IMG/VR virus record: IMGVR_UViG_3300006735_005664
Coordinates: 1-59,936 of that record
DNA length: 59,936 nt
From: a virus
Reading direction: 5' to 3' (one strand)
The notes under the pieces are model-generated. The model was not told the DNA's origin, ran no database searches, and saw nothing but the letters and a program-made list of their open reading frames with translations. Shown in pieces: positions 14,001 to 50,509 of the stretch. How positions within the stretch are numbered: the first letter of the stretch is position 1; every line of letters begins with the position of its first letter. Both the position numbers and the translations under genes were made by a program.

Positions 14001-14515
14001 CATTTGATTTAACAGACTCTGGTATACTTGATAAACTTAAAACTATAGAAGGTCCTGGGTATCAAGATGGAGAATTAAAAGATAAGATTAAATTTGAAGA
14101 ATCTGATCTTTATAAATCTAAAAAAATATCAATGCTTGTAGATCAAGAATTTGATAAAATACATAATAATAAAAATCTTATTAATAATAAACCAGATGGA
14201 TTAACATTGCTTGTAAATGAAATGGGCACCTATACACCAGACAAGATTCCAGGAGGGGGAACACTTACTGTATATAAAGATGATGCTGGTAATTTTAGAA
14301 TGAAAGTAGAAAGTCAAGGATTCAATCCTGTTACAGGAAACATAGAATGGGATCCAGGTTTAATAACTAACAGAATTATTGACCCTCAAATGATTTCTGC
14401 TGAGGTTGCACAACAACAATTTGATTTTCAAACTTTATCAATAGCAAATAGTTATATGCAAAACCAATGGAAAGAATTAAAAAAAGAAGAAGCTAACAAT
14501 GCAGAAAACCAATAA
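11009..14515 (+). CDS. Large virion protein of unknown function (1,168 aa)
   Basis: The first gene after a 62-base AT-rich gap, ending two bases before the giant polymerase gene. No known domain is recognised. The N-terminal 130 residues are rich in Tyr, Asn and Gln (NVLQQRQNRYDQNYNAINN), which suggests an assembly or oligomerisation helix. The centre (about 400-450) has a charged Lys/Glu helix followed by a Gly/Lys-rich flexible segment, and an EF-hand-like DADGDGVDE loop lies near residue 990. There is no signal peptide or membrane span. Position and size suggest an internal capsid or tail cargo protein delivered with the neighbouring giant polypeptides. Confidence 0.85.
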   Translation: MASYLPNHQGYIPQLQTFTPDYKFLSNVLQQRQNRYDQNYNAINNLYGQVVYAPLTRDDNKEKRDQYANDISNSLKQVSGLDLSLQQNVETAKALFKPFYDDEELVQDMFRTRRYQEESQNMMEMKNSNIKKRRDNYWTYGDRFLQMNMEKFKTLSADEAYNLPMPEYVENPNLFEEGQRLLSDPNLDGDTSDAMKIEYTDTSGDFIVTYENGRAMTNFPYIDENGVQRYKNWGTEWLAQALQDDPKVQRGYYVMGQVVAEDWIQSNLEEYGGNRFAAQKAWDDKIIKESVDAQIIKLSETETALLAASLSAESWEEYKKTNGIVEGTAEAKLLDRKKYELQLAQDANKRLIDRIENQKSPTDDPEGYHQKALVSFMSMQIGEQMDAAATKYAQGTSKVEYEVNEPKLQEKKHLFEKGMQEAKQAFEWDKMMQEHQNKLEQIAAEGGKGKGDNKTGKGSQADMISGMLDDIVMSGNLNLIGPPTQENPEQLSSGWEALYSSYEGTKKMKWAQISLLYNNIKLAQDQLSGGAGAGSFQVIDGGKKVTKSLEEAMMFLLQPENSDELDRIYSQIQKWTNETDEVETENGMVTLQRFAQGDPGWNMYVGDDPNTKELEGTPLRVLLAANETDIMGNTLMLPEISKQFKTDIQKSYRYLKQNQPTSEYSINAKNGYADRVAPTAVWEGMRWGFTWGDLYAPEDATRQDGSSHWDWMEKEFKARNLLKPDDQLTAEELKMSIRERIMNTPLDYMVDKDYRNFQMLSLQGLSTGGKDESGWYHDNNAEQRTKEYLNKYFWDDVDGAKQQKFFSGWNSGRGEVWNFDKSKGWYFDSIKAQNLINEHMVNMDKELNNLWSDDKAMLKEKGVPHPTVVQDVYNLDVDDAGSGLIVYPVSNTNFDTREPSESAMDNFTAAIQAFKAEDAIATIIGGDWSTKFPEETIDDPMAKQALSLLFGQVQTGLNSDLESNQTNFLMSWTQAGGGEGSRTDADGDGVDEYHSLYTFDLTDSGILDKLKTIEGPGYQDGELKDKIKFEESDLYKSKKISMLVDQEFDKIHNNKNLINNKPDGLTLLVNEMGTYTPDKIPGGGTLTVYKDDAGNFRMKVESQGFNPVTGNIEWDPGLITNRIIDPQMISAEVAQQQFDFQTLSIANSYMQNQWKELKKEEANNAENQ

Positions 14516-14517
14516 TA

Positions 14518-17500
14518 ATGGCAGAAGAAAAAGAAATAACTAATAATTTGCCTCAACCAATACCTCCCGCAAAAGATGGAGTTAATCAAACTCCTATTGT
14601 TGATGAGACAAATTTTAATATACCTAATTATCCCAAACCACAAGAGTTTGATAGTATAGCAGATTCTATTATACAAGGTGTACAGAATGAAGCTCCTACA
14701 ATAGATGACAATACAAGAGCTGCACTTGAAGCTGCTTCATATGATATTAATAAAGTACTTCCTCAAATAGGAGGATATAAAAAATATTTAAGCCCAGGTC
14801 CTTCTGGACAAGGGTTTAATCCTTGGGAAGCTAGTACAAATAATTTTAATTTAAATACTGTAGAAGGTAGAAGAGCTTTTATGGCAGGTAGTAGTCAAAG
14901 AGCTGCACAAAATTTTCAAGACACAGGTAGAGGAACACCTTCTTCAGGAGCATGGCAAGATCCTGTTGTATTTGGAATGCGGGCTATGAATGCTGATAGA
15001 TATTGGAATCATCCTAAATTTGAAGAAATAGGATATCATCCATTTCAAGATAATGAAAGCTATTATAATACTAATAGTAGTTGGTGGGATGATATGAATA
15101 GATCTAGAGGAGCTTTTAGTACAATGTTTGGTCCTGCTTTTACAAGTAACTGGAGAGCTATTAGAGACTTTTTTCATGGTGATAATTTAGCAATGGACTA
15201 TAAAGGTTCTGAAGCTATGGCAGATGCCATGAGAATAGGATCTTCTAGTAGAGGAGGTATAGGTGGTTTTGCTAATGATCTTTTTATTAACAGTGCATAC
15301 ACTGCTGGTATTATTAGTAGTATGTTTGTTGAAGAAGCAGCTTTAACAATGGGAACAGCTTTTACTGGGGGTGCAACTTCTGGTATACAAGCCCTAAGAA
15401 CTGCTGGTCATATGAAAACACTTTTTAATTTAGGAGATAAAATTAGTGATATGAGTAGAACAGTGGGTAACTATTCAACTGATTTTCTCAGACAAATAGG
15501 CGATGTTGAATATGCTAGAAAATTTTATAACTGGACAAAGGGTAGTACATTCACACCTAGATCAGCTAGATGGTTAGCTAGTCAGCTTGCTCCAGAAACA
15601 TCTTATGCTATGTCTAAAATAAATTCAACTAGAAATACAGTTGAAAATATGGGTAACTTAGCAAAAACAGGAAAGTTATTTGGTGGATTTTATAGAGATG
15701 CAAGAGCTTTAAGTTTAGCTTGGTCTGAATCTAAATTAGAAGGGGGACTCCAAGAACTAGAAAAAAGAGAAGAATACTACATGAGAATGTTAGAGGAGAA
15801 CGGTGGTAATCCTTTATCTCAACAACAATGGGAAGCTTTAGATTATTTAGCAAAAGCAGATGGTCTTAGTACTGCATGGAAAAACTTTCCTATAATATGG
15901 TTAAGTAATAAATTTGTACTAGATGGAGCTTTAAGAGGTTTTAAACCTTTAGGTAGAATGCTAGATGAAACTATGGAAGGTGCAGGTGGTAGAATAATGA
16001 GAGGAGAAGTTAGTGGAAAACAAATGTGGTTTGATGCAGGAACAGGTCTCAAAAGAGTTTGGAATGCTGGATTCAAAGGTAATGCCCGTTTATTTGGAGC
16101 AGCAGCTCTAAGATACTCTACAGCTAATTTTGCTGAAGGTTTTCAAGAATTAGCACAAGAGGGTGTTTCTGCTGGTACAGGACGTTATTATGATGGGTTA
16201 TTTGAAGAAGCATTATCAACATCCATAGATCTTGATATTGCTGCTGTAGAATCTGCTAGAAAGACAAATACATATGAAGATGTAATGAAGGGTATTTCTG
16301 CTGGTTTTCAAGGAGAGTCAGTTAACTTTCATACGTTTATGTCAGGATTTTTAATGGGTGGTATGGTACAACCATTTCAAGCTGTTTTATTTAAACATAT
16401 GCCAAATCTCTATAAAAGAGTTTCAGACCCTAAAGAATTTAAAGCATATCAAAAAGCAAAAGAAAAATACATAACAAATTCTGTTAATACTCTAAATGAA
16501 TTATGGAATGAAAACCCTAGAAAGTATTTTGATATAACAAAGCTAGATGCATTAAATCAAAGATCATTAAATCAAGAAATGTTAAAAGCATCTTATCTAA
16601 ATGATATAATGGCTTTTAAAGATGCTAAAGATCAAGCAATCTTTAGTAAACTATATACAATGATTAAGCTTGGTAAGGGTGCACAATTTTCAGAGCATAT
16701 TAAAAACTTTTTAAATATGACTGATGAAGAATTGTTACAAGCATTTCCAGAAGCAGATGCATCAGTTAAAGATATAAGAAAAAGATTTGAGGGAATGGAT
16801 AAAAAGCTTCTTGATATGCAAGATAAATATCATAAGTTAAATGAAAAATATGTAAATCCATTTGATGAAAATAAATATGAGTTTGGATCTAGAGCTTATG
16901 CTCAAGAAGCTATAAGGCAAATGGCATATGATCATGCCAAAATGATGTTAATGTTTACCAATAACACATATGAAAGATCAGTAGAAAGAATGAATTCAAT
17001 CTATGAAAAACTTTCTGTAGATCCTGTTGTTGATAAAATGGCTGCTAATGATATCAATGCCTTATTAACTAGAGAGGGCATGATGAAAGAGATAAGAATA
17101 TTAGAAGATGAACTAGCAGTTCCTCCTGGTAAAACAGCAAAAAAAGAATATAAAGAAATATATAAACAAAAACAAGAAAAATTAAAGCTTCTAACTGATT
17201 ATAAAAATGTTTTAAATAGTGATAAAAATAAAAATAAAGACGGCACATTTAAAAAAGCTAAACTACCACTTCTTAAAAAAGCTTTTTTAAAGTATGTTAA
17301 TCATATTAAAGACACTTCAAATGGTAAGCTTACAGATAATGATGGAATAGATCAAGCAATTGAAATGATAGTAGATCATAAGATTTTAAACGGAAGACTT
17401 TCTGATTATGATAGAGCTAGAAGAATATTAGATAATCCAGATCATTTAGTTGAAGTTGCTGATAGAGTTGCTAATGCAATGAATAGAGTATGGGAGGCAA

Positions 17501-20500
17501 ATAAAAAAGAATATAAAATATATAAAGACACAAAAGAATTTGTTAATAATCAAGAACGCTCTAAAGTATTAACAGATTTAGCTAAAGAAGGTATTTTTGC
17601 TGATTCAGATCAAGCAATAATCTATCTTAAGTCTGGAGTTGTTCCTGATATATGGTATAGTGAGGATAGTAAAATTACTCCTATGACAGCTTTTGAAAAT
17701 CCTAATGCTTGGAAAACAAAAAATAGAATTTTAAGAAATCATAAAAAAATAAAAGAAGAAGAAGCAAAATCAGATGCTGTAGAAAAACAAAAAGTTAAAA
17801 ATCAAACAGAAGGTGATCAGGGAGATATAACTGATAAGGAGGTTAAAGATGTAAAAGAAGGAAAAAATAAAACTGAAAGAAGTGTATTTCAAGAATTCTT
17901 ATCTACAGATCCTAATACTGAAAAGATATTAGAAAAACAATATGAACAATATGAAGAGCAGTATGATCAGTTAATAACTAAACCTGCTTTTTATGAGTTC
18001 AATGAATGGATTCAAAGAGGTGATGGTGGTGCTCCAGTATTGAGGGCTAGAATGAAGTTGTATAATTTATGGAATGCACAGTCAGCAAAAGCAAAAGCAA
18101 AAGAACCTTTTGAACTTTGGTTAAAACAAAATCAAGGTAGAGCTGATGTTAATAATATTATTACAAATCAAAAATCCGCAAATGGTGAAAGTTTGGTAGC
18201 GGCAGATGTTATGTATGATACAGTGATGAATGAAAAATCAGAACTTCAACATACGTTAGACACAGAAGAAACTCAATTATATATTTTAAAAGATGCAGGA
18301 ATAGCTGTTATAAGAGTGGATGTATTTGATGAAGACACTCAAACTAAATCAAAGTATTTTAGAATAATAACATTAAACGGTAAGGATGCTTATGATGTAT
18401 ATGAGGATTTAGATAAAACTGGAGAGGTAATTAAAAAAACTTATAATAGAAAAACAGATGTAGATAATGCTGCTAAGTTTATCAAAGACAATAAAGTTAA
18501 AGGTGATACTTTTAAATTTGAAATTGCTCCTGGAGAATTTCAAGATCTTACTACTAAACAGCATATATATAAAGATAATAAAAAGTATATAGTACAATCA
18601 AGAAAATCACTAGTTGAAGAACATGGTAATCTATTTGTTACACCACAAGAAGGTGGAGACCCTATAAAGATTAATCCTGGTGAGTTTACTTCAGAAGGGT
18701 GGACTATAGGTGAAACATCAGCAGAAAGAAAAGATAAACCTGTACAGCTGTCAACAACTGAAGATGTTAGTAGCTTGACAAGACTTAGAGTAAATGAACC
18801 TATATCTTTTTATAAGTATATTTCAGATGAACAAGAAGCACAAGGCTACACTTCTGAAGAAGCTATACAAGATTTTGAAGAAACTTTAAAAAGACTTACA
18901 CCTGAAGATAGAAAAAACTTAACATTGAAAATAACAAAAGGTGAAAACTTTGAGGCGGTTATTGAAAATGCACCTGAAGATGCTAAAGGAATACAAAAGC
19001 ATTTTAAAGATTTTCCACAGTTTTATAATCAACAAGAAGATGATTTTTATAAAGCTAATTCTCAACTTAAAAGAGGTGCCTCTAAATTTAATGTAGTATT
19101 AATGTTAAATGACCAACCTATTGGGAGAATGTCATCATTTCATGATGCTGTTTTATTAGATAAAAACGGTGAAAGACTTGATCCTTTAACAATAACTGCT
19201 GATCAAGCAAAAAGATTATTTAGAACAAAAGGTCATGGTAGAGATGCTCACATAACTATTCAAAATAATTATGCATACTCATTAATGATAGAAAAAAAGT
19301 TTGATGATCTTTTAAAAGGAAAAGATACTGCTGATGTAAAAGTTGAAGATCTTAAAGATGATAATATTCATCTTCTTCTAGATCCAGGTAGACCTGCTTA
19401 TGGTAACAGAAAGAAAAAGAAACTATTTACTAAAATAAATGATCTTGATTATTGGGATATAGGGGAATATAAAGGTCAAAAAATATTTTACGTAGTTAAT
19501 CAACAAAGAAGATCTGGTAAAGCTGCTAGAGTAGAATCACCACCTATTACTAATCATCCACAAGAAGAAGCTGATATTCCTGCTTTTGAAAATCTTAGAG
19601 ATGAAGTAGATGCTATAATGGGTAATCAAGGTAAGACATCTTTTGATTACAAATTAAGAATGGGAAGATATATTATGTTTGTTAAGACTCCTAATGGAAC
19701 TATGACTGCTATTGAATTAAAGTCTCCACCCTTAACTGATGCTAAACTAAATGAAATATTTACAGATCTTAAAACTAAATCTGCAGAAATAGCTGACAAT
19801 CATATAGTTAATGAAAATAAAAGTAATGAAAGCTATTCAGATCAAGCAGAAGAAATTGCATATAACTTTGCTGATCAATTAGCATCTGAATTATTTATAG
19901 CTTCAGAAACTGAAGGTCAAAACATATCAATAGAACTTCAACCATACGGAGGAGTTGTTATTAGTGACTATAACACAACAAGTAAGAAACAAAGACATAT
20001 TACTATTTCACGTGGTAAGATGAAACAAATAGCAGACTTAAATGAGTTTATAGAATTTACTAATAAAAAGTGGACTGATGAACATGGTACTGACAACAAA
20101 ATAGAATTAAAAAAAGAATATTTAAGAAAAAATATTCCAAATAATATATCTGTTGAAGACTTTAAATCCGACATGACTGCTAATATACAACCTCATATAA
20201 GATATCAATTAGGTTTAAATCTTGAATATACTGGTGATGTTGAGGCATTAAAAGAAGCTCATGCACAAGCTAAAAAAGATAAGATATTAAAAAAAGAAAA
20301 TGCTGGATCTGTAGAAACAACTACAACAGATAAAAAAGAAATCAAAGAATTAAATAGAGAAACATTTAAAGCAATTGCTGCAAGTCAATTTAGAAGAGTT
20401 CCTGAAGGTATAATCAGAAGTATTGCACAAAAGATAGTAAACAAAGAAGAACTTACTCCACAAGAACAAGCAATAGCTAATTCACCTCAACAAAAAAGTA

Positions 20501-23500
20501 GAATTGCAGCTGAAAGAATGTCTTTAATGAATTCTCAGAATAGTCCAGAATCTGAAAAAAGAGTAAAGTCTGGTGACTTATTTAAAAGTAAAACTAGGAA
20601 AAATGAAAAAGCTCAAACTGATAAATTAAAAGAGCAAGCAGATCAAGCATGGATGGAAGCATTTGAAGAAGGTTTGATTAAATTTAATGGTGATAAAAAA
20701 GCAGCTAGTAAAATGGCTGATAATGATAAAAAATATATATCATTAATGGCTCAGTATAAAGATGCTAGAGAGAACTTGCCAGGTTTAAAAGTATTAGATA
20801 GCTTAGATAATTTTGACGAAGAAGATATACAAAAAATTGAAGATTTTGTTGAATGGGCTAAACAAAATTTACCTGACTGGATTCAAATAGAAAGTATAGA
20901 AGATCTAGGTGAAAGACTTAAGAATAGTGGCATGACAGTGGGAGCATTCTTAATGCATTTAAAAAACTCAGCACTTGGAGTAAGTGGAGGATATATAGGT
21001 AAAATTTATGTAGGTAAAAAAACTCCATATAAATACCATGAGGCTTTTCATGCTGTATTTAGAATGATGCTAAGTGAAGAACAAATCAATAAATTTTTAA
21101 ATCTTGCTAAAAAAGATGTAAATAAATTATTAAGATCCACCAAAGGTTATGAAATGATACCAGGGTTTTTTGCTAAAAGTAAGAAACAAGCTCTTGACAA
21201 ATTAAGAACGCTAAGTCCTGTGTATGAAAAGATGAGTGATAAAAAGCTAGAAGATGTATTAAATGAAGAATATTTAGCAGATCAATTTGAGATGTTCAGA
21301 CAAAATCCTAAAACATCAAAAGTAGATTCTCAGGTTAAATCTTGGTTCACAGTTGTATGGGAATTTATTATGTCAATCTTTACAAAGATGGGCAGTAAAA
21401 ATAATACACAAGAAGATCCAATGCATGAATTATTTAAAGATATTGATTCAGCAAAATATAAAACAGCTAATGTTCAAAATAATAGATTTACAGAAGCTGC
21501 TGCAAAATTAAACGGTGGTATTACTACACCTGCTTATAAGTTATTAACTAAAGATGAAATAGAAGTTCCTGTACAAATTAGAAGAGCTGGTGAATTAATA
21601 ACTGTTAAAAAGAAAATAAAACAAACCTTTACAAGTGATGAGTCAGATTTACTTGTTAGAAATTCTGTTAGTGCATATTGGGATTTACGTGCTAAATTAA
21701 AAATAGATCAAAAGAAAAAGAAAGTAGCAGACAAAGCTAGAAAAGCAGCTGAAAAAAATGTTATACATGAAGCTGTTAATTTAGTTATTCAATATCATGA
21801 TCCTAATGGTCCAGCATGGGATAACTTAGATATGAAAACAGAAGCTGGTAAAAAAGAATATAAGCAACAAAAAGATAAATACGAAGCTCTTTTAGCTTAT
21901 AGAAAAGATTTTAGAGATGCTGTTAGAAGTTATCTTGATTTAGTACAAAAACAAGATCAAGATATGATAGATGATTATGATTTGGCAGATAATGCAGAAG
22001 TTAAAAGTACAGAAGATTGGGATGAAGAAGCAAATCAAAGAGGAGGATATAGAAATCTTCCAACACAATTAAGAATGTTTATAGCTACTACTGTTATTGC
22101 AGAGCAAGATAAACATGGCAACCCTATATACTTAAATCCTGATGCTCCAAAAAATAAAAGAATACAACTTAAGGCTGGTGTAGATTATATTCAAGCATAC
22201 AATGGTTTATTAAAATCTGTATCAGGTACTTTAGATGAAGTAGATATGTTAAAGAAAATGTATTTATTTTCAAGAACAAATAATCATAGTAGAGCTGTAA
22301 TTAGAAAGTTCTTTAATAAAATATTTGGTAAGAACGGTATGCAGATTGTTGAGCAAACAGTTATAGAAAATGGACAGTTGCCTGCACAATCTCAAATAGC
22401 TGATCCAGAATTTTTAAACATGATGTTTAATGGTTTCTATCAATTCAGAGTTGATTATATATTTGCACTAAGAGATAAGAAAACTGGAGAAACTAGTTTG
22501 TTTGCTGCAAATCATAAAGATGATGCTCACAATCAGACAACAAAATGGAATGCTGCTCATCAAACAAAAATTAAAGCATTAAGAAATAGAAACTCAATGT
22601 TAAAAGGAGGAGCTTTAAGAAAGTTAAATAGTTATGTAATTAATCCTTTAACTAATGATTTAAGATCAACTGAATCTCCAAAAAGCTTTGAGGCCTTAGA
22701 GGATAAGTCAAGAAGATATGCAGAGCAACTAGAGGATTTAACAGGAATAAGTTTAAGTGCAAATTATATTGCATATAGTATATTACAAACTAAAGATCCT
22801 TCTGATCCTAACTTAATTGCATTAAAGACAGCATATACAGAACAAGGAATAACATTTGAAGATCTTGAAGAGTTATCTATATCCCTACAAAAGGGTGAAG
22901 AAATATTTTATGATCATCAAGAAATTGATAACCCTGATAAAGTTAAAGACAATGATGGTAATGAAACTGTTCCAGATACTGAAATAGTAGAAGGGGGTAT
23001 AAAAGGTAGATTAAAAAAGTGGGCATTAGGAAATGCTGTTTTTGATGAAACAGTTGGATCAACAGTATTTTTAGATCCAAAAGGTAATTTTATATATGCA
23101 CATCAATTACCTACTTATCATTTAGAAAAAGTTGCCATGATTAATTCTGCAGAAGGAATTAAAATGGAAAAAGATGCTAACCCTGATTATGTTAAAAATT
23201 ATTTACTTAATGATCCAGCATTTAATTCTTTAGCTGAAAATCAACAGTTAAAGGTTTTAAGAATGATAGGGTTTAAAGAAACAACAACTAGTCTTACAGC
23301 AGATGGAACTAGAGTTGAAAATAAAGGTTTAGATGCAAATGCTATGCCTGGTAAATCTTATGGAGAGCTTACTGATGCAGAGCAGCAAGCTAATTTAATT
23401 AATATGTATCTTCTTAATGTTAGTCAAAGGTCAGGTAAACTTAGACAAGAAAATTATTATACTGAACAAAAAGGTAGAAGAAATAATACAATAGAATTTG

Positions 23501-26500
23501 CTACATCTCCAGTTATGATTAGAGTTATTGAGGCTTCAAATACTGCTGACTGGGTAAATCTATCAGTTATTAAAGCTGTAGAGCTTGATAAAAAATCAGG
23601 TGAAATTGTATTAACTGATAAATTAGTTAATGGATTTTTAGATAAAGTTGAAAAAGAATTTAATTTAATTTCAGATGAATCAGCAAAACTAAGTGATCCT
23701 GAATGGATGGACAAAGAAGATGTATATGATGGATATCATACAGATAAAAAAGGAAATATAGCTTCTAGTATAAAACAAATTGAGGAGCATGAGAATGATA
23801 AAAAGAATAAAAAGAATCAACATCAACAATATAGAGCATATAAGTTTACAGAAAATGAATCTGTTTTAGTTATAAGAAAACCTAAAGAAAAAATAGATAC
23901 TCTAACAAATGATAACGTTAGAGGTACATTAGGTAATGTTGAATATGGAAGAATAGAAACAGGAGATCAAAAAGTATTTGTAAAAGATAATTTAATTAGT
24001 GGTTTACAAGCTGGTGGTAGAGCAGAAGTTATGATCGGAGAAGAGATATTTATGATAGATCATCTAGGTAGAAAAAATAGAACCCAATATGATCTACTTA
24101 AAGCTATTCTAGATGGTGAATTTGGTACTGCTGTTAGCACTGAAGTAACTGATAAACATTCTAAAAATAATAAAATTACTTTATCAGATCCAGAAGGAGG
24201 TTCATATGAGTTCTATACAGAAAGTGCTAAGCTTGCTAAGTTTTTTAATAATCCTAAAATAGATAAAAATATTTATAGAATATTACCTAGAGAAGATTAT
24301 TTAAACGAGCTAAAAGAAAAAGGTCAAGTAATGAGTTTACAAAAAGGGACTGTTGATATGTCTCTTAAACAAGAATTAGAAAGATTAGCAAGACAAGGTG
24401 ATGTGAGTTTTTCACAAGCTTTAGATAAGTTAGATACATTACGTGAAGAAAAGGGTTTAAATAGTGTAAGAGATACTGTTAAAGCAGCTTTAAAATCTCA
24501 ATATAATTTATATAACATTGCTATTAATAAAATAGGTGTTATGGACAGGCTTGATGCACGCTTAAAGAACGGCATAACAGCTGATAGTGCTAAGAAAAAA
24601 GGATATGCTAAAAGCGGTAAAAATAAAGCAACTAGACATACATCTAAATTAATGAATCTTACAGAGGATGTTGAATACAATTTACAACAAATATTTTTTA
24701 GTAATTGGCTTAATACTAGTTCTCTTAATGAAGTATTACTAGGCAATGAATCAATATCTTTAAAAGATGGTGTTGATAAAATTAAAAGAGCAAAAATGCA
24801 AAATGCAGCTGGTCCTAATGCAAGATCAGTTGTTACAAAACCAGAATGGGGTATAAATGATATTACCACACATGTAGATGGAATTGTAATTGAAGATCCT
24901 GAGTTTGAAAAAACATATGATGGAACTGGTAAAGGTCATCAACAAACTGATGCTCAAGTTTATATGACTATTAAGGCTTTTAAACAAACTTGGTTTGGTC
25001 TTGGTAAATTAAACAAACAACAAGCAGAATTGATTGAAAAAGTTACAAAGGGACAACCTATAACAGCAGAAGAATTTTTTGGAGCTGTTGATAAAAATAG
25101 TTTAGGTTATAAACAATTTGATGCGCAATTAAATTCTAAAAAATATGTTTATGGAGATGGTATGCGATATGTAAAGATGTCTGTATTTGTTCTTACTCCA
25201 GAATTTGATAGTCATAAAGATGGCAAACCTTTAGAGAGTAGAGTAAAGCTTTATAACTTAAGAAAAAAGATGGAGGAATATGAAGCAAAGAATAAAACTA
25301 TTATGTGGGCTATTCCTAAAAGTGCATCTAAAATGGCAAATAAAAATGTTATTAAACCTGAAATAGCATTTAATAGTGATACTAATTATGACGATACTTT
25401 TGGAAAAGGAAATAAGAATGTTACAAAATTTGATGCACGTTGGTTAAGATTACAACAAGTTACTCCATCTAATAAAATAGAAATTGTTGATCCTAGACAA
25501 ATAAAAAATCTTATACTTAATGAACAAGATGATAGTGTAACTGTTATACTTGAAGGTAAGGAATATACAGTAGGTGAAATTAAAAAACTTTATGAATTAT
25601 CTTTAACACATAGAGTTGAATTAAAATACTTAAATAGAAGAAATCTTATATTTGATGTTGACAGTGCTCTTGGAGAGTTAACAAAAAGTATTGCATCTGG
25701 AGGAATTACTCCAGACTTACAATCATTTTTAGATTATGCAACAGCAGCTTTAGAGGCTTCTCAATCTAAATCTCAGTTCATAGAATTTTTCAGTATGGAA
25801 AATAATACATCTAAGTATGAGCTAAACAATCCTATTACTATACAGAGATATACAGAACTAATAATGAGCTTCTTCGGTCAAGGAGTATTGTCTGAAAAAC
25901 AACCAGGACACACAGTTACTCTTGCATCTGATTATGGTGTAGATGTAATTAAGCAAGTAGAAGAAGTTGATGGAAATGGAAACCCAATAGCATGGAGAGT
26001 TGTGCGCACAGATGAATGGACAAATAAATCTGAAGAAGAAAGATCTACATTATCTGCAATTAAAGAAAATAAAGACGGAACTTTTTCAGGGTTAGCAAAA
26101 GATCAATATTATGTAGATAGACTAAGACATGATATAGTTGAATACAAAAGAGGCAAGGATGGTAAACTAATAAAAAAGAATGGTAAACTTGTAAAAACAA
26201 AACAAAGATTTTCTGAGTTTATGATACCTCCTCATTTTTCAGAAATGATGACTAATCTTGATCCAACAAAACCTATACCAGATACATTAGCTAAAATGTT
26301 TGGTGTACGTATACCATCTCAAGATAAACATTCAGCAATAAACTTAAAGATTGTAGATTTTATGCCTGTTTATTATGGATCTACTGCTATATTTTCAAGA
26401 GAACTTATTGAGGTATCTGGAGCTGACTTTGATATTGATAAACTTTATATTCAAAATAAAGAATTCTATGTTAATGAAAAAGGTGAGTTTAAAGAATACG

Positions 26501-29500
26501 GTAAAGCAAAAAAAGAAAAAGATCAATTTGCAGATTATATAAGATATACGTTAAAACAATTTAAAAATAAACAGTCTAGTGAAGCATTAGCACTTAAAAA
26601 GTGGAGAAGAAGAGCAGACTCAACAGACAAAAAAACTCAGACTGACATTATAAAAGATGTAAATGTAATAGAAAAAGAATTTGATTATTGGTTTAGAACT
26701 AATAAAAGTAATTTAGGGGTTAGTACAGATGACAGCCCTTCTTATAAAGAACTAATAGAAAATTCTGCTAAAAAAACATTTGCTGATACAGAAGGTTATG
26801 ATTATGATGAGCTTTCCGGTAAGTTTCAACCTGTATATAAAGAAGATACAGAGATCACAGAAAGAGCATCAAATGAAGAGATCTTACAATACTTTAAAGA
26901 AAATAAATTTATAGCTGGTGCTTTAGGTATTTTAAAACTACCAATTAATTTTACTGAATATAAACAGTTTAAAGAAGATAATAAAGTTGAAATAAATAAT
27001 GATTTAACTTTTTATGCAGAACCTTATGCTGGTGGATATAATAATCAAGTTCTTGATTATAAAATTGCTTTACTTGGTAATGATCATATGACCAAAGTAG
27101 AGTCTGGATCTACAGCATCTATTAAAAATGAACCAGCAGATTTAGGACCCCTAACAGATATAGTAGAAGAAATAGAAAATGATCTTCCTAATTTAGCTGA
27201 AGAATTTAATGAAGATGGTCTTGATGTCAATAATATGCTTGGTATTCTAAAAGCTTGGTCAAATAATAAAGCTGGTGCAAGAAATATTGGAGCTGCAGTA
27301 TTACCTAATGTATATTTAGGATGGCTTAAAAATGCTAATATACAACTAAGAGAAGCTAATTCTAAAGGTACACCAATTCCGTTATTAAGATTAAATAAAC
27401 ATGATTATAAAAACTTTGGTATTAATTATGAAATAGATACTAAAACAGGAAAAGAAAATAAGTCAGGATATAGAACTCAATATATCATTTCTGCTCTTAT
27501 AACAGCAATGACAGATAATGCAAAAGAACGTCTTGCTGCAAAGCTTGGTTTAAATAAAGATGCTCTAGCTGTTGTAACTAACATGGTTGCTTTAGGTGTT
27601 AACATTAAAACAGCTATATACTTAGTTAATTATCCTACAATTAAAGACGCTTACTTTAAAGCTATGAATAAAAAATCACCCACTGATCCAGGTATAAGAT
27701 CATTAATAATGGGACAGATTATAAGTTTAGATAAAGGAGAGGTTGCAGAGTTATCTAAAAAGGTTGAAGTTACAGATGGTTTACTAAGAGAACATATATT
27801 AGATTTTAAGAATGCTCAAGAAACTGCAATTATAAATCAAGAACCTTTAGCTAATGAATGGAAAGCAGAAGAACTTGCAGTTCTAAAGCAGTTTATGAAT
27901 ATATGGATGATAAAAGACTCTACTTCAAAGCTTAGTACTATTGCTAATATTCAAAAGGGAATGGGTAGAGATATGCAAACTATTGAGGCTAAGAGTGCTG
28001 ATTTTGAAGCACTAGGTTTAGAGTTATCTGATCAAGATTTTTCAGAAACAAATATTCCATTTGATATAAGACATTTAGTTAAAAATCCAGATACAATTAT
28101 GGGTGTTAACTATTTAATGTATAAACAATTTACAGAAAGAATTTTACCACAAGCTCTTGTAGTAGCCTCTAAACCATTTAAAAAACTACATAATATTATT
28201 AGAGAAAATTTTGGAGCACTACCTCCAGCACTTGCAGAAGCTGCAATTGAAAAATCTAGAAAAGATATTTTAACATATGTTAATGGCTTAGCTTATATGA
28301 ATCTTGTAGCAGGTACAAATAATTTTACTGCAACATCATTAAATAACTCTCTTATATATCAAGAAATGGACGGACCTGTTGATATATATGATGTTGTTAA
28401 TAAAACAAGAGCTTATCTAAAAGAAAAAAATGTTGAAAACAAATTCTTAGAAAAATTTATCTTTAATGATAAAGCATATACTGGAGAAAATAAATCAGCA
28501 TTAAACCGTATTACAGCTAATCAATGGACTCAACTAGCTCCAAGTCAAATTACAGAGCTACAAGACGGACTACTTTCTTTATGGAGTGGTAATGAAGTGG
28601 AAAGAGAAGCAGCAACACATTTAATTAACTACTTATTAGTTAAAGATGGATTCCAATATAAATCAGATTCATTTTTAAACATTGTTCCTCCAGTAATGTT
28701 AAGTACATTCTTGCAAGCATCAGAGGCTGTAAAAGAATTATTTTCACAAGACAATCCTACGGATACAGGTTTTGAAAATGTATTTGGACAAGGTGTAAAC
28801 TTTGAAGTATTAGCAGAATATATGACAGAATATTTTGAATCAGCTTCTACTGAACATTTTGTGCAACCAATTATTGCTCAAGATCAATGGGGTAAACTTA
28901 TACAAATGGCTTATGGTGTACAAGCAGAAGTAGATACCGAAATATACTCTTCAATGATAAATGAAAAAGTTGCTTTAGGAAGACCTAATGCAATATTTGT
29001 AACTCAAGATACTCAAGCTCAAGATGTTATAAGAAATAATAGAGTTAGAAATTTACCAAATGTGTTTACTATACCTACTAGAAAATCTAAAAAAGAACCT
29101 TTTACTGATGATGAGATTTTAGAAAATAAAGATATTATTACTGAAGCTTTAGATAAAATAAGAGATGTAATTGGTGAATCTGGAATGCCTTTAAATCTTG
29201 ATGTAGAAGGATTTGGTGTAGGTAAAGGTTGGGATATGGAAACAGATGCTCCTGAAACTTTTAAATTTTTATCAGATGAACTAAAAAGATTATTTGCATA
29301 TAAACAACCATACTTTAGATCAGAAAAAACTAAATCTAAAGACGGTGTTACAAAAGTTATTTCCGGAATGCAAACTGGTGTAGATCAAATAGGTTTAGAA
29401 GTTGCTAAAGAATTAGGAATAAAAACAGGTGGTACAGCTCCTAGAGATTTTGTAACAGAAGAAGGAAAAGCAAAAGAACTTGCTGAAGAATATGGTGTTA

Positions 29501-31065
29501 AGGAAGTAACTGAAGACAGTAATAAAAAATATGGTAAACCTGAAGAAGAACTTTATTCAGCTAGAACTGAATTAAATGTAATGAATTCAGATGGTACTGT
29601 GTATTTTAATTTTGGTGAAACTTCACCAGGATTACAATCTACTAAAGGTTTTGTTGAAAATGTATTAGCAAGAAAAATTCAAGATCCTGAAAATAAAAGT
29701 AAACAAATTATAAGACCAGACAAACCTTTTATATTAAATCCTACAGTAGAACAACTAAAAGAATTTATTAAAAATAATAAAATTAAAACACTTAATGTTG
29801 CTGGTAATAGACTTAGTAAAATGAATTCTGACCAACAAAAAAATGTTAAAGAAATTTTAGAAGATGCATTGGGTGTAGAAAAGAAAGGAGGTAAAAAAAC
29901 AAGAGTAGCAGGATCAGTGGATAAAGTAACAGAACAAAAGTATGCATCATATTTAAATCTTCAAGAACCAGGTAAAGCTATAATGATAGTTGATGCAATG
30001 TTAGGTACAAGAAGAGATAAAACTAAAAAGAAAGTTGTATTTAGTAAAGGTTATAAAAAAAGAAAAGGGGAAACTCAAAAGCAATATAATGCAAGAATTA
30101 AAAAAGCAAAAGCTAATAAATCTCAATTAAAAAGAAGTGGGCGTAAGACTAAAGTTATAACCATAAACAATCAAGAAATAGATGTATTTACTTTTAAGAC
30201 ACATGAAAAAATAAGAGTTCCTGTTGTTTATAAAGATTTAAAAGATGGAAAAATAAAAAAACATAAAACAAAAAAAATTACAATACTTCTAAAAAGAACT
30301 AAACTATATGTTCCTTACACAGCAGAAGAGATACCACAAGCAGGAGATGTTTTTAATTTAGATAATCCAGAAAGCACTGTGTGGGGCACTAGAGCAGAAT
30401 ATGTACAAGTTCTTAGCCGAGGTAGTAAACAACAAAACGGAATGTCTTTTATTTATGATCCTGTTGATGGCGGTGTTATTATAAGAAGACCAGCATATGA
30501 TGCATTAAGAGAAGCACAAAAAGCAGCTGAAGTTGTTAATGATAAAACAGGTGCTGGTGGTAGCAATGTAGTACTAGAAGCACAATTGGAAGCAGCTGCA
30601 AATAGAGTAGCAAAGTCTGGTACTAAAGGTAATATTAATAATACAAATATTAATCAAGTAAATTCAACTAATGATAATATTGAATTGATAGCCGGTAATA
30701 CAAAAGTAGGAGATACTAAAGATGAGTATATTGGAAGTATAATAAAAAAGAATTTAATAGGAAAGGATAAACCTAAAGCTGAAGGAAGTGTTGGATCTAG
30801 TTTATTTAAAAAACAAAGTAAGGTACAGGATATAAAACCTAAGATTACTAAGAAAGATTTAACTGAAAAAAATGAGAATCCTAACAAAAATTATAGTAAC
30901 TTGCGACAATATTTAGAAGAATTAGGAGGACCTAGAAGATTTAAACTTGCTTCAATTATGGGATTTTCAGATGGTAATATATCTACATTTGAAAATGATT
31001 TAGATAAATCATCATATACTGAAAAAGAATATTTAGAGGACTTAAAGAAATGTTATAATTCATAA
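14518..31065 (+). CDS. Giant 5,515-residue virion RNA polymerase fused to zincin and SLOG-like domains
   Basis: An unbroken 16.5-kb reading frame. Three modules can be seen. (1) A zincin-type metallopeptidase motif HEAFHAVF at residues 2174-2181, with a downstream Glu candidate in EEYLADQF. (2) A beta-prime-like RNA polymerase active site at D3970-F-D-I-D3974 in SGADFDIDKLYI, preceded by RIPSQDKHSAINLKIVDF; this parallels the R-P-x(n)-NADFDGD arrangement of cellular polymerases and the single-chain polymerases of crAss-like phages. Lys-rich conserved-looking segments near 3454-3620 (GDGMRYVKMSVFVLTPEF, MWAIPKSASKM) may be the beta-like barrel. (3) From about 4948, ISGMQTGVDQIGLEVAKELG and GGTAPRDF match the permuted YpsA-like SLOG (molybdenum carrier-like) family. 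The first 700 residues hold hydrophobic, Gly/Ala-rich helices that might help membrane passage. Injection with the DNA and early transcription are inferred from family knowledge. Confidence 0.9.
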   Translation: MAEEKEITNNLPQPIPPAKDGVNQTPIVDETNFNIPNYPKPQEFDSIADSIIQGVQNEAPTIDDNTRAALEAASYDINKVLPQIGGYKKYLSPGPSGQGFNPWEASTNNFNLNTVEGRRAFMAGSSQRAAQNFQDTGRGTPSSGAWQDPVVFGMRAMNADRYWNHPKFEEIGYHPFQDNESYYNTNSSWWDDMNRSRGAFSTMFGPAFTSNWRAIRDFFHGDNLAMDYKGSEAMADAMRIGSSSRGGIGGFANDLFINSAYTAGIISSMFVEEAALTMGTAFTGGATSGIQALRTAGHMKTLFNLGDKISDMSRTVGNYSTDFLRQIGDVEYARKFYNWTKGSTFTPRSARWLASQLAPETSYAMSKINSTRNTVENMGNLAKTGKLFGGFYRDARALSLAWSESKLEGGLQELEKREEYYMRMLEENGGNPLSQQQWEALDYLAKADGLSTAWKNFPIIWLSNKFVLDGALRGFKPLGRMLDETMEGAGGRIMRGEVSGKQMWFDAGTGLKRVWNAGFKGNARLFGAAALRYSTANFAEGFQELAQEGVSAGTGRYYDGLFEEALSTSIDLDIAAVESARKTNTYEDVMKGISAGFQGESVNFHTFMSGFLMGGMVQPFQAVLFKHMPNLYKRVSDPKEFKAYQKAKEKYITNSVNTLNELWNENPRKYFDITKLDALNQRSLNQEMLKASYLNDIMAFKDAKDQAIFSKLYTMIKLGKGAQFSEHIKNFLNMTDEELLQAFPEADASVKDIRKRFEGMDKKLLDMQDKYHKLNEKYVNPFDENKYEFGSRAYAQEAIRQMAYDHAKMMLMFTNNTYERSVERMNSIYEKLSVDPVVDKMAANDINALLTREGMMKEIRILEDELAVPPGKTAKKEYKEIYKQKQEKLKLLTDYKNVLNSDKNKNKDGTFKKAKLPLLKKAFLKYVNHIKDTSNGKLTDNDGIDQAIEMIVDHKILNGRLSDYDRARRILDNPDHLVEVADRVANAMNRVWEANKKEYKIYKDTKEFVNNQERSKVLTDLAKEGIFADSDQAIIYLKSGVVPDIWYSEDSKITPMTAFENPNAWKTKNRILRNHKKIKEEEAKSDAVEKQKVKNQTEGDQGDITDKEVKDVKEGKNKTERSVFQEFLSTDPNTEKILEKQYEQYEEQYDQLITKPAFYEFNEWIQRGDGGAPVLRARMKLYNLWNAQSAKAKAKEPFELWLKQNQGRADVNNIITNQKSANGESLVAADVMYDTVMNEKSELQHTLDTEETQLYILKDAGIAVIRVDVFDEDTQTKSKYFRIITLNGKDAYDVYEDLDKTGEVIKKTYNRKTDVDNAAKFIKDNKVKGDTFKFEIAPGEFQDLTTKQHIYKDNKKYIVQSRKSLVEEHGNLFVTPQEGGDPIKINPGEFTSEGWTIGETSAERKDKPVQLSTTEDVSSLTRLRVNEPISFYKYISDEQEAQGYTSEEAIQDFEETLKRLTPEDRKNLTLKITKGENFEAVIENAPEDAKGIQKHFKDFPQFYNQQEDDFYKANSQLKRGASKFNVVLMLNDQPIGRMSSFHDAVLLDKNGERLDPLTITADQAKRLFRTKGHGRDAHITIQNNYAYSLMIEKKFDDLLKGKDTADVKVEDLKDDNIHLLLDPGRPAYGNRKKKKLFTKINDLDYWDIGEYKGQKIFYVVNQQRRSGKAARVESPPITNHPQEEADIPAFENLRDEVDAIMGNQGKTSFDYKLRMGRYIMFVKTPNGTMTAIELKSPPLTDAKLNEIFTDLKTKSAEIADNHIVNENKSNESYSDQAEEIAYNFADQLASELFIASETEGQNISIELQPYGGVVISDYNTTSKKQRHITISRGKMKQIADLNEFIEFTNKKWTDEHGTDNKIELKKEYLRKNIPNNISVEDFKSDMTANIQPHIRYQLGLNLEYTGDVEALKEAHAQAKKDKILKKENAGSVETTTTDKKEIKELNRETFKAIAASQFRRVPEGIIRSIAQKIVNKEELTPQEQAIANSPQQKSRIAAERMSLMNSQNSPESEKRVKSGDLFKSKTRKNEKAQTDKLKEQADQAWMEAFEEGLIKFNGDKKAASKMADNDKKYISLMAQYKDARENLPGLKVLDSLDNFDEEDIQKIEDFVEWAKQNLPDWIQIESIEDLGERLKNSGMTVGAFLMHLKNSALGVSGGYIGKIYVGKKTPYKYHEAFHAVFRMMLSEEQINKFLNLAKKDVNKLLRSTKGYEMIPGFFAKSKKQALDKLRTLSPVYEKMSDKKLEDVLNEEYLADQFEMFRQNPKTSKVDSQVKSWFTVVWEFIMSIFTKMGSKNNTQEDPMHELFKDIDSAKYKTANVQNNRFTEAAAKLNGGITTPAYKLLTKDEIEVPVQIRRAGELITVKKKIKQTFTSDESDLLVRNSVSAYWDLRAKLKIDQKKKKVADKARKAAEKNVIHEAVNLVIQYHDPNGPAWDNLDMKTEAGKKEYKQQKDKYEALLAYRKDFRDAVRSYLDLVQKQDQDMIDDYDLADNAEVKSTEDWDEEANQRGGYRNLPTQLRMFIATTVIAEQDKHGNPIYLNPDAPKNKRIQLKAGVDYIQAYNGLLKSVSGTLDEVDMLKKMYLFSRTNNHSRAVIRKFFNKIFGKNGMQIVEQTVIENGQLPAQSQIADPEFLNMMFNGFYQFRVDYIFALRDKKTGETSLFAANHKDDAHNQTTKWNAAHQTKIKALRNRNSMLKGGALRKLNSYVINPLTNDLRSTESPKSFEALEDKSRRYAEQLEDLTGISLSANYIAYSILQTKDPSDPNLIALKTAYTEQGITFEDLEELSISLQKGEEIFYDHQEIDNPDKVKDNDGNETVPDTEIVEGGIKGRLKKWALGNAVFDETVGSTVFLDPKGNFIYAHQLPTYHLEKVAMINSAEGIKMEKDANPDYVKNYLLNDPAFNSLAENQQLKVLRMIGFKETTTSLTADGTRVENKGLDANAMPGKSYGELTDAEQQANLINMYLLNVSQRSGKLRQENYYTEQKGRRNNTIEFATSPVMIRVIEASNTADWVNLSVIKAVELDKKSGEIVLTDKLVNGFLDKVEKEFNLISDESAKLSDPEWMDKEDVYDGYHTDKKGNIASSIKQIEEHENDKKNKKNQHQQYRAYKFTENESVLVIRKPKEKIDTLTNDNVRGTLGNVEYGRIETGDQKVFVKDNLISGLQAGGRAEVMIGEEIFMIDHLGRKNRTQYDLLKAILDGEFGTAVSTEVTDKHSKNNKITLSDPEGGSYEFYTESAKLAKFFNNPKIDKNIYRILPREDYLNELKEKGQVMSLQKGTVDMSLKQELERLARQGDVSFSQALDKLDTLREEKGLNSVRDTVKAALKSQYNLYNIAINKIGVMDRLDARLKNGITADSAKKKGYAKSGKNKATRHTSKLMNLTEDVEYNLQQIFFSNWLNTSSLNEVLLGNESISLKDGVDKIKRAKMQNAAGPNARSVVTKPEWGINDITTHVDGIVIEDPEFEKTYDGTGKGHQQTDAQVYMTIKAFKQTWFGLGKLNKQQAELIEKVTKGQPITAEEFFGAVDKNSLGYKQFDAQLNSKKYVYGDGMRYVKMSVFVLTPEFDSHKDGKPLESRVKLYNLRKKMEEYEAKNKTIMWAIPKSASKMANKNVIKPEIAFNSDTNYDDTFGKGNKNVTKFDARWLRLQQVTPSNKIEIVDPRQIKNLILNEQDDSVTVILEGKEYTVGEIKKLYELSLTHRVELKYLNRRNLIFDVDSALGELTKSIASGGITPDLQSFLDYATAALEASQSKSQFIEFFSMENNTSKYELNNPITIQRYTELIMSFFGQGVLSEKQPGHTVTLASDYGVDVIKQVEEVDGNGNPIAWRVVRTDEWTNKSEEERSTLSAIKENKDGTFSGLAKDQYYVDRLRHDIVEYKRGKDGKLIKKNGKLVKTKQRFSEFMIPPHFSEMMTNLDPTKPIPDTLAKMFGVRIPSQDKHSAINLKIVDFMPVYYGSTAIFSRELIEVSGADFDIDKLYIQNKEFYVNEKGEFKEYGKAKKEKDQFADYIRYTLKQFKNKQSSEALALKKWRRRADSTDKKTQTDIIKDVNVIEKEFDYWFRTNKSNLGVSTDDSPSYKELIENSAKKTFADTEGYDYDELSGKFQPVYKEDTEITERASNEEILQYFKENKFIAGALGILKLPINFTEYKQFKEDNKVEINNDLTFYAEPYAGGYNNQVLDYKIALLGNDHMTKVESGSTASIKNEPADLGPLTDIVEEIENDLPNLAEEFNEDGLDVNNMLGILKAWSNNKAGARNIGAAVLPNVYLGWLKNANIQLREANSKGTPIPLLRLNKHDYKNFGINYEIDTKTGKENKSGYRTQYIISALITAMTDNAKERLAAKLGLNKDALAVVTNMVALGVNIKTAIYLVNYPTIKDAYFKAMNKKSPTDPGIRSLIMGQIISLDKGEVAELSKKVEVTDGLLREHILDFKNAQETAIINQEPLANEWKAEELAVLKQFMNIWMIKDSTSKLSTIANIQKGMGRDMQTIEAKSADFEALGLELSDQDFSETNIPFDIRHLVKNPDTIMGVNYLMYKQFTERILPQALVVASKPFKKLHNIIRENFGALPPALAEAAIEKSRKDILTYVNGLAYMNLVAGTNNFTATSLNNSLIYQEMDGPVDIYDVVNKTRAYLKEKNVENKFLEKFIFNDKAYTGENKSALNRITANQWTQLAPSQITELQDGLLSLWSGNEVEREAATHLINYLLVKDGFQYKSDSFLNIVPPVMLSTFLQASEAVKELFSQDNPTDTGFENVFGQGVNFEVLAEYMTEYFESASTEHFVQPIIAQDQWGKLIQMAYGVQAEVDTEIYSSMINEKVALGRPNAIFVTQDTQAQDVIRNNRVRNLPNVFTIPTRKSKKEPFTDDEILENKDIITEALDKIRDVIGESGMPLNLDVEGFGVGKGWDMETDAPETFKFLSDELKRLFAYKQPYFRSEKTKSKDGVTKVISGMQTGVDQIGLEVAKELGIKTGGTAPRDFVTEEGKAKELAEEYGVKEVTEDSNKKYGKPEEELYSARTELNVMNSDGTVYFNFGETSPGLQSTKGFVENVLARKIQDPENKSKQIIRPDKPFILNPTVEQLKEFIKNNKIKTLNVAGNRLSKMNSDQQKNVKEILEDALGVEKKGGKKTRVAGSVDKVTEQKYASYLNLQEPGKAIMIVDAMLGTRRDKTKKKVVFSKGYKKRKGETQKQYNARIKKAKANKSQLKRSGRKTKVITINNQEIDVFTFKTHEKIRVPVVYKDLKDGKIKKHKTKKITILLKRTKLYVPYTAEEIPQAGDVFNLDNPESTVWGTRAEYVQVLSRGSKQQNGMSFIYDPVDGGVIIRRPAYDALREAQKAAEVVNDKTGAGGSNVVLEAQLEAAANRVAKSGTKGNINNTNINQVNSTNDNIELIAGNTKVGDTKDEYIGSIIKKNLIGKDKPKAEGSVGSSLFKKQSKVQDIKPKITKKDLTEKNENPNKNYSNLRQYLEELGGPRRFKLASIMGFSDGNISTFENDLDKSSYTEKEYLEDLKKCYNS

Positions 31066-31068: not shown

Positions 31069-34000
31069 ATGGCAAAATGTTTTAATAGAAATACACCGGA
31101 GTATCAAGCTCTTCAAGAAAAATTTGAAACAACTACTGTTACAAATAGTGTTATAAATGCTTGGCAAGTAGTTAACAATTCAGATGCTATACCTACAATT
31201 TATCAAGCAGAAAAATTTACCTCAAAACAAAAGGCTTTTAAAAGTCTTGGTACAAACGCTTTAAAAGATGCTGTCTTAAATAACTTAAGAAGAAAAAAAC
31301 TTATAAGTAAACTATATGGAAGATACTATATAAACAATTCAGCACCTCAAGCATTTGAATCTGATCCTGCTGTACTAAAAGCTAACACAGATAAAGTAAT
31401 GCAGATGTTAGATTGGTGGGGTGTAAATCTAGACTCTGTTATAATAACTCCAACCCAAAAATCTGTTAGAATAGATATTAATGCAAATGAAATTGGAGTT
31501 AATGATGCTGTACTTCAATCTAAAGATAGTACACATTTACCAGATATAATTTCTCATTTAACAAGATTATTTCCAGACGTTAACATTATGACAATGGAAG
31601 TTCAAGAGGCAGAAAAATATTATAATTCATTACCACAATTTAGATATCTTCAAGAAAGAGTTAAAGATTTTAATAAGGTTAGAAGTTTTTATGATGGAAA
31701 CGGTAATGCTGTCCTTATTAAAGGAAGGGTTAATTCAGAAATAGCAATAGAAGAAGTGTTACATCCTTTCATTAATTCTCTTGCTATGGATAAACCTACT
31801 TTGTTTGACAATTTAACAAGAGAAGCTAGGGCAAACTTTCCCAAACTACGTCAAGAAATTGATGATGCTTACAATAATGATCTAGGTTTTACACAAGAAG
31901 ATAGAAATAGAGAGCTTGTTACCCAATCATTATCTAGATATTTTAAAAGAGAATATGAAACACAACCAACACAAAGTTGGAAGTCTCAAGTTAAGCTCTT
32001 ATTAAAATGGTTAATGGATATAATTAATGATCTTAGCAGATATGTAGTTGGATCTGATTTAAAATTACGTCCAGGTATGATAGACAATAGAACTACAATG
32101 TCTGATATTGCTAAGCTTTTAAATACAGGAGACTTAGAATTTGTACTTGGAGATGATATTGGAAGAGATAGAAAAGTATTTCATAAACTTACTGATAGAT
32201 TACAAAAAGTCTTAGACTACCAATTAGAACAAGCAGAAACAGAGTATCAAGGAGAGATAGCAGAAAGATTATTTAATATTAAAACTGATAAAACAGAGTT
32301 TGATGATTTTACTGTAGGGCTATCAGGTAATCCAAACTATCCTTTGTTAATGTTAAATAGAGCAGATCATAAGTATATAAATCCAGATAGTTTAATGGAA
32401 TTTAATGGCTTAACAAGTAAGATTGGTGGTCATATGTCTAAAAGTTATAAAATAAAAGATGGCCAAACAATACAAGATATACTTAAAGAAAATGATATAG
32501 AAAATATAGATGATGTTATAGAACTGAATCCTATAGGATTAGACATATTAAATCTTGAAGATGCTGAGGGAAATACATTAACAGAAATTTTTATACCTGA
32601 AACAGATTATCAAACTAATATAGATATTGGTAATGATTTTGATTCCTTAGTAGAAGCATATCTTTTAGATGAACCTATTGATACAGTAGACCTTAAGGTT
32701 GTAGATAAAAAAGTTGCAATAGAGTTTACTAAACAAATGTCTAATAGACTTGAAGGTATTAGAAGAGGAGGTGGAATTTTAATTCCTCAAGTTGTTGTGT
32801 CAGATGGTGCCTCAAGAACAGGAAGTGCTGTAGATTTATTGCTTATACAACCCGATGGATCAATAAATATTATAGATCTAAAGACAAGTAAGAATGAAAT
32901 ATTTGATGTTAATGAAAATGGAGAATTAAAATATGATATAAAATATCCTGTAAAATATGGAAGTATTTTTTATAATGAATCTCTTCCTCACAACAAACAA
33001 GTAAAGCTTTCTAAAAGACAGCAACATAATCTTCAGGTTAATGCTTATTCTCAAATTCTTAAAAATCAAGGTCATAATGTTACCAAAGCAACCACCTTGC
33101 ATGTTCATACACCTACTGTTGGTGAAAAGAAAAATCAAAGGTATACACAAAACTTTACTATAGAAAGAGAAATAAACCATATGGAAACTGCAGATGTACA
33201 ACTACCAGATGGTACATTTGCTGGTGAACAATTAATTGCACCTGGAATAGATCCTCAAGCTGAAAAGAAAATGGAGGATATAGCTAGAAAAACTGGACAA
33301 ACTTTAGAAGATGTTTCTGAAAGTGAAAAGATAGCAGAAGAACAAGCACAAACGCATGCAACAGAACAAGCTATAACAGGATTATTAACAGACTTTTCAA
33401 CAGCCTTAGTTACAAGAAAAGATGCTGTTAAAAAAATAAGAAATCAAGCAGTTTTATTACGAGACAAACAAGAGATATTAAATGATATAGACAATGTAAC
33501 AACACAAATTAATATTGCAGTAATAGAAGGCAGGGTGGGACCTTTATATACACAGCTACTTAAACAGTCTATTGATATGATGGATGAGTTTATAGTATTT
33601 GCTAATGATCCTAATAATTGGGGTAAAGAAGAGTTTATTGGTAAAGTATTAAACTTTCAATCCATGGTTAATACATATATAGGATTGACTAAAATAAAAA
33701 ATGTAAAAGGTCTTAAGCGTGAACAATCAGATGCAGTACTAAAACTTATAGAAAGATTAAACACTATTAATGGTGTGTCTGATGGATTAAATAATATTAA
33801 AGAAGGTGAAGAAGGATTAATAAATCAGTCTATTGATAATTATGTTAAAACATATGTATCTGAAAACTCTAATAAAGATTTTACTAAAGACGAATTAGAA
33901 GATCTTCTTAGGTTAGGAAAAGACATTGGTATGATTGAATATCAAACAGGTGATATGGCTACATCTTCTGATACTATATTAGCACTAATGGATAAAATCT

Positions 34001-50062: not shown

Positions 50063-50081
50063 ATATTAAAAAAGTAAAATT

Positions 50082-50381: not shown

Positions 50382-50509
50382 TGGCTAAAGGAAACACATT
50401 TGTATTTAAAGGATCTAATGCTACAAAAAAAAGAAGAGGTGTACATAGTAAAAATGCTAGTAAATCTCAAAATGCATATAAAAAACTCTATAGAGGACAA
50501 GGAAAATAA
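50381..50509 (+). CDS. Lys/Arg-rich 42-residue protein
   Basis: The ORF overlaps the preceding stop by one base (TAATG) and encodes MAKGNTFVFKGSNATKKRRG followed by VHSKNASKSQNAYKKLYRGQ and GK. About a third of residues are basic. Compact K/R/S/N-rich proteins of this kind, ending YRGQG(K/R), look like small nucleic-acid-binding or internal virion proteins. It lacks both the MPGK and GPNG end motifs of its neighbours. Confidence 0.65.
   Translation: MAKGNTFVFKGSNATKKRRGVHSKNASKSQNAYKKLYRGQGK

Follow-up and report, generated by a model that had tools for sequence, protein, structure and literature searches.

Folded enzymes of several hundred kilodaltons have to leave the capsid one after another, in the correct sequence, through a narrow tail; as to how they do so, partial unfolding is all that the crAss001 structural atlas could propose. 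The window, i.e. the whole stretch of 59,936 bases that was analysed, is a linear virus sequence that is probably a fragment. One frame of the plus strand (Table 1) is open for 5,515 codons, a run with a chance probability of ~1e-219 at 8.7% stops per random codon. A sequence-only reading had described this frame as a single uninterrupted chain joining an RNA polymerase, a zincin and a SLOG domain, and had regarded its combination of domains and its size as deserving attention. The open reading frame check and the motif positions bore out the layout, with HEAFH at 2174, DFDID at 3970 and the SLOG motif SGMQTG from 4949, where 4948 had been given.

Table 1. Positions of the features in the window, with the evidence for each.
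Feature	Position	Strand	Evidence
Probable virion protein, 1,626 aa, LysM and YkuD L,D-transpeptidase domains	506-5386	+	Domain matches
401- and 428-aa proteins, 0 Cys, probable cargo or tail parts	8455..10946	+	Cys count; position only
1,168-aa protein, 0 Cys, directly upstream of the giant, probably cargo	11009..14515	+	Cys count; position only
Giant chain, 5,515 aa: gp47-like part joined to a gp50-like virion RNA polymerase, with C-terminal DUF7831 and SLOG modules	14518..31065	+	Open frame; layout as in cr118_1 and IMG/VR relatives
HEAFH (2174-2178), predicted zincin zinc-binding and catalytic motif	21037..21051	+	Same motif in crAss001 gp47 and cr118_1
E2250-E2251 in the next helix, candidate for the third zinc ligand	21265..21270	+	Invariant in 54-66 relatives; helix 218-239 of model
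RNA polymerase core, two double-psi beta-barrel type	24805..28104	+	Profile against 6vr4, model, Foldseek
DFDID (3970-3974), predicted metal-binding catalytic aspartates	26425..26439	+	Aligned to phi14:2 DFDID and crAss001 gp50 DFDVD
DUF7831 domain (PF25176)	28954..29277	+	29.3 bits against a cut-off of 27 when the piece was scanned
cpYpsA-type SLOG domain	29356..29865	+	PF12694 E=3.7e-25; 3imk E=1.6e-8
Cys5512, sole cysteine of the giant, 4th from the C-terminus	31051..31053	+	Cys count; conserved in 78/81 chains
gp49-type RNA polymerase-associated cargo protein, 1,924 aa	31069..36843	+	Matches crAss 'putative RNA-polymerase subunit' and equivalents, best E=2e-22
Cys4 (MAKC), sole cysteine of the gp49-type protein	31078..31080	+	Cys count; conserved in 71/73 chains
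Ribonucleotide reductase, directly after the cargo block on the opposite strand	37236-39095	-	phrog_367 E=2e-131
1,107-aa protein	43754-47077	+	Start resembling a signal peptide; numerous GCTD..A.NYN repeats; C-terminal sorting domain of type IX secretion (Por_Secre_tail E=3.8e-10)

In crAss001 the two catalytic motifs are found on two proteins, HEAFH at 2157 of the 2,341 residues of gp47 and DFDVD at 1,483 of the 2,412 residues of gp50. The phage cr118_1 carries both in a single annotated homologue of 4,946 aa (HEAFH 1734, DFDID 3209) that is followed by a gp49-type protein, which is the layout of the window, and the 4,287-aa giant chain of Fpv3 is likewise followed by a gp49-type protein; both share the terminal cysteine pair described below but lack the SLOG motif, and cr118_1 has four more, internal cysteines. 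The giant corresponds to crAss001 gp47 and gp50 in one polypeptide and would work with the gp49-type protein of the next gene; this partner gene shares a block with the giant as in Crassvirales-type virion RNA polymerases. An assembly artefact was ruled out by the cr118_1 homologue and by dozens of uninterrupted relatives in IMG/VR, where a scan with an alignment of the DFDID region returned 502 relatives, of which 80 were kept. An HExxH motif lies 1,250-1,850 residues before the DxDxD motif, in the same frame, in 67 of the 73 sufficiently long relatives; RNA polymerase and zincin in one giant chain are the norm for these phages. The uncommon part of the combination is the SLOG domain, carried inside the giant in only 4 of 50 records (a standalone copy occurs in one more), whereas the size and the pairing of polymerase and zincin are ordinary, crAss-like RNA polymerase genes of up to ~6,000 aa being cited in a review (PMC10136315). 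A frameshift probably accounts for the split found in L015, the corresponding region being unsplit in L016. The crAss001 major capsid protein matched 6 of 14 relatives' records, weakly in the nearer ones (E 9e-6 to 4e-9) and at 1e-56 in the L091 record, and the structural genes that define the order Crassvirales (crAss-type major capsid protein, portal and terminase) lie outside the 60-kb fragment.

Giant virion polymerases with metallopeptidases are known from N4-like phages (PMC5512222) and from Thermus phage P23-45 (PMC10770324). The N4-like enzyme, a polyvalent protein, is an injected polymerase of ~3,500 aa fused to a zincin, but it has a T7-type fold and forms one chain; P23-45 gp96 (5,002 aa) joins a two-barrel RNA polymerase to a metallopeptidase as the window does, yet it is fused to the tail tape measure of a long-tailed phage. 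In architecture the giant fits the polyvalent proteins, large chains delivered with the virion that combine unrelated enzyme domains, often with a zincin (Iyer et al. 2017), and to go by its relatives it would be delivered with the virion.

Among the neighbouring genes, the product of 43754-47077 appears to be secreted and carried by the phage, which suggests a host among the Bacteroidota. A row of small basic proteins is encoded at 49832-51118 (+). In several of them MPGK stands at the start or close to it, and four terminate in GPNG(V/I)L; they may be described as a tandem family.

The polymerase part was compared with known structures at three levels. A 200-aa piece around DFDID, a motif expected by chance 0.004 times in the chain, matched 6vr4, the phi14:2 virion polymerase, as the only structure (E=1e-6), and a profile of 61 relatives matched the same entry at E=9.8e-119 across 1,100 residues, so that homology extends over both barrels and includes DxDxD. 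The AlphaFold model of residues 3430-4529 (pLDDT 88.6, pTM 0.88) showed the two-barrel fold, and Foldseek placed 6vr4 at the top (E=2.1e-25), followed by QDE-1, a two-barrel enzyme too; the polymerase assignment thus withstood the structural test that had been named for it. For the RNA polymerase part, true homology to the virion polymerase of phi14:2 (numbered gp66 in the paper and gp077 in KC821624) is strongly supported. With this system, and with crAss001 gp47/gp49/gp50, the window shares a two-barrel enzyme with DFDID and partners of gp47 and gp49 type. It differs from both phages in having gp47 and gp50 as one chain and in the added DUF7831 and SLOG. In relatives the RNA polymerase is packaged, injected and transcribes early genes (PMC7886860, PMC10172136), and by likeness the 5,515-aa protein would be the virion-packaged, injected RNA polymerase of a crAss-like phage with the same role in early transcription. 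In the giant of L051 a P-loop kinase-like domain (AAA_33, residues 3437-3616) is inserted ~20 residues past the catalytic DFDID.

For the zincin part, HEAFH is the sole HExxH of the chain (0.06 expected). Alignment of 54 relatives revealed that H2174, E2175, H2178, E2250, E2251 and F2257 are invariant, the HExxH residues having been required for selection of the sequences and E2250, E2251 and F2257 not. In the structural model, parts of which were poorly modelled (pLDDT 73.9), HEAFH and the two glutamates lie in successive helices, as described for zincins. A Foldseek search of this model against PDB and BFVD returned no structural neighbour, and tblastn of the zincin part against named phages gave no match. 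Motif and conservation, with HExxH and a glutamate in the next predicted helix, support a zincin-like metallopeptidase, as the earlier reading had proposed. The gp49-type protein has, at about residue 225-235, EEVLHPF where the Leptolyngbya phage Lbo-JY46 has HEFMHPF, which makes it a second zincin, probably dead.

Cleavage by its own zincin, inside the head or once in the host, could release separate functional proteins from the giant, and the length of the chain would then be irrelevant. Zincins in polyvalent phage proteins have been proposed to process themselves, and the invariance of the zincin residues in the clade would fit such a role, but the N4 virion polymerase is packaged uncut with its zincin (PMC5512222) and gp77 and gp78 of phi14:2 lack HExxH. 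We regard self-cutting as possible though doubtful.

A different reading is suggested by the cysteines, on which the sequence-only reading had not remarked. The giant and the gp49-type protein have one cysteine each, on the two sides of the gene break. Counted over the window's giant and those of its relatives, there are 131 cysteines in 339,153 residues. A cysteine was found within the last ten residues of 78 of the 81 giants whose C-end is in view (0.31 expected) and within the first ten residues of 71 of the 73 downstream proteins (0.48 expected); both expectations assume uniform placement, and since the rows are related and not independent such chance values overstate the case, while the gene starts were partly set as the first Met near the previous stop. 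At the far end of the downstream protein, used as an outer control, none of 67 chains had a C-end cysteine. AT-rich composition as the cause of the low cysteine content was rejected, because 17-19 Cys per 1,000 residues occur in two other enzymes of this record, the DNA polymerase and the reductase. The N4 virion polymerase has no cysteine in 3,500 residues, and the absence of cysteine from N4-like polymerases has been tied to passage through tail and periplasm (PMC3715699, PMC3915230); such a polymerase would lack the terminal cysteine as well because it is one chain with no break.

The same pattern was observed where the chain is broken elsewhere. In phi14:2 and crAss001 the cysteines are found only or mainly at the termini, and crAss001 gp50 and phi14:2 gp77 have them at both ends: with negative numbers for the C-end, phi14:2 reads gp78 C(-1) / gp77 C3, C(-2) / gp76 C3 and crAss001 reads gp47 C(-3) / gp50 C5, C(-9) / gp49 C5. 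In L074, L078, L084 and L094 a break lies upstream of the zincin and a cysteine pair occurs there too, and in L063 a split in the C-terminal part of the polymerase gives three pieces with C(-1) / C3...C(-1) / C3. On the other side, not one cysteine occurs in L082 and L083, in which RNA polymerase and gp49 are fused, and where it is the gp47 part that is fused the chain carries none at the N-end.

Three genomes were fetched afterwards as a test of the rule, and it held in all of them. Phage phi17:2, placed outside Crassvirales in its record, has gp39 C(-1) / gp38 C4, C(-2) / gp36 C3 and no further cysteine in 4,388 residues; DAC15 has C(-3) / C5...C(-1) / C4; and crAss002 has C(-2) / C3, provided that the second gene starts at an internal MSC, with no cysteine at the fused far end. 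In the relatives, breaks between the gp47, gp50 and gp49 parts thus have a cysteine on either side, and the rule holds across distant groups and, which is more telling, moves with the breaks. Exceptions were found in some gut lineages, where the chains keep internal cysteines (L075 23, cr116_1 10, cr4_1 7, cr118_1 5), and in L054, which has none at the C-end of the giant. Probable gp45-type proteins (Lbo_2, Fpv3_30; L005:5866-7890 and L006:5769-7565) have a lone cysteine near the N-end, at position 5 (MKKKC), with no visible partner. Within the part of the literature covered, neither the cysteine rule nor a disulfide between cargo proteins was found reported, and the crAss001 reports there do not mention cargo cysteines.

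The sequence-only reading had supposed that the protein is folded or cut for its passage through the tail, while a lone cysteine at the terminus suggests instead that one continuous chain is threaded. The cargo would be threaded through the tail largely unfolded, and the cysteines would have been purged from the chain, as in N4, because of this threading. One cysteine would be kept on each side of a gene break, where the upstream protein ends and where the downstream one begins; in the virion a reversible disulfide between the two would join the proteins head to tail, the leading protein would pull the next through the tail, and the reducing cytoplasm would uncouple them. In fused genes a peptide bond would replace the coupling and the cysteines would vanish. 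Since the cysteines sit exactly at the breaks and are lost in fusions, end-to-end disulfide coupling would be their best explanation. Disulfides do occur in the tail of crAss001 virions (PMC10172136). They form poorly in the cytoplasm, so those of the cargo would need to arise in the capsid or once the cell has lysed. We give the account as a whole, that of a crAss-like virion RNA polymerase chain with a cargo putatively coupled end to end by disulfides and with a swapped-in SLOG, a probability of about 0.6. As a general proposition, we lean slightly towards the view that multi-part phage virion polymerases are joined by reversible disulfides between C-end and N-end, forming a continuous thread in ejection and coming apart in the host cytoplasm, with fusion and cysteine coupling being interchangeable.

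Terminal cysteines could also serve in anchoring to the capsid or portal, or in holding a folded complex after entry. They might hold the parts of the folded polymerase together, either in the capsid or after entry, as ordinary inter-subunit disulfides at neighbouring termini unrelated to the order of threading; the same pairing data fit any contact between two termini, and crAss001 virions do use inter-subunit disulfides in the tail (PMC10172136). We hold this to be unlikely, as the pairs occur at breaks in several different places of the chain, so that their position follows the gap in the chain rather than one fixed site of contact, and the cytoplasm in which the polymerase works is reducing. 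Alternatively, each cysteine might bind another partner (portal, packaging factor or metal) and tag its protein singly for packaging or ejection, a role that would fit a terminal and invariant residue. Such a tag would be expected on fused chains and on outer ends too, and the absence of cysteine from the L082 and L083 fusions and from the outer C-ends makes it very unlikely.

The module that sets the window apart is the SLOG domain. Its permuted YpsA-like type, proposed from the sequence, was confirmed by Pfam cpYpsA (PF12694), which scored 77-84 bits (83.6 for positions 29356-29865 of the window) against a curated cut-off of 26.2, and by the match to 3imk. It resembles the cpYpsA SLOG of the Maribacter phages Colly and Molly (~37-38% identical) and 3imk, which differ from it in being standalone and in having cysteines (two in Colly). 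Three of the in-chain copies, those of L076, L091 and L094, share 88-96% identity with one another and 51-52% with the window copy, while the polymerase cores of L094 and L091 are only 22% identical; in L094 the domain lies at the opposite end of the chain, before the zincin and beside a NADAR-like domain. That SLOG domains 88% alike occupy different ends of chains with such dissimilar polymerases points to horizontal movement of the module, and the SLOG looks like a rare, swapped-in and horizontally shuffled module. In-chain copies have no cysteine and standalone relatives have two or three, so that modules seem to be purged of cysteine on joining the chain. In phi17:2 a small gene, gp37 (L107:12714-13073), starts with MFKIIIAGGRDF, is SLOG-like by eye and lies between two Cys-paired cargo genes.

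Of the other added modules, DUF7831 was identified in the tails of 9 of 53 relatives as well as in the window chain, and NADAR was detected by Pfam in L016 (E=7e-11, above the cut-off), in L094 (1.1e-5) and weakly in L044 (0.004); NADAR-like domains read by eye in the tails of L011 and L052 were dropped as they had no Pfam support. The use of TQP/QTSEV linkers as module borders was also dropped, TQP alone occurring at about chance frequency (23 expected), and their flanking of modules in L094, L016 and L028 is at most suggestive as a border mark.

Iyer and colleagues proposed that viral YpsA-like SLOG and NADAR domains, typically standalone, act against immune signals of the ADP-ribose kind, and found few such domains in short-tailed phages (PMC9503650). 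By analogy, the SLOG on the injected chain would most likely bind or cleave immune signals of the NAD/ADP-ribose type before the phage genes are expressed. It might instead sense a nucleotide and regulate the polymerase or the zincin, sensor roles having been proposed for SLOG domains fused to nucleic-acid enzymes (Iyer et al. 2022, PMC9503650), but a regulator should keep its place and the L094 module does not, which renders this reading somewhat unlikely.

The rule of cysteines at chain breaks is a simple sequence pattern that is present in isolated laboratory phages, and it makes one answer to the question of exit through the tail directly testable. The SLOG finding would add a way in which probable anti-immune domains are delivered by short-tailed phages, namely as a part of the polymerase that they inject.
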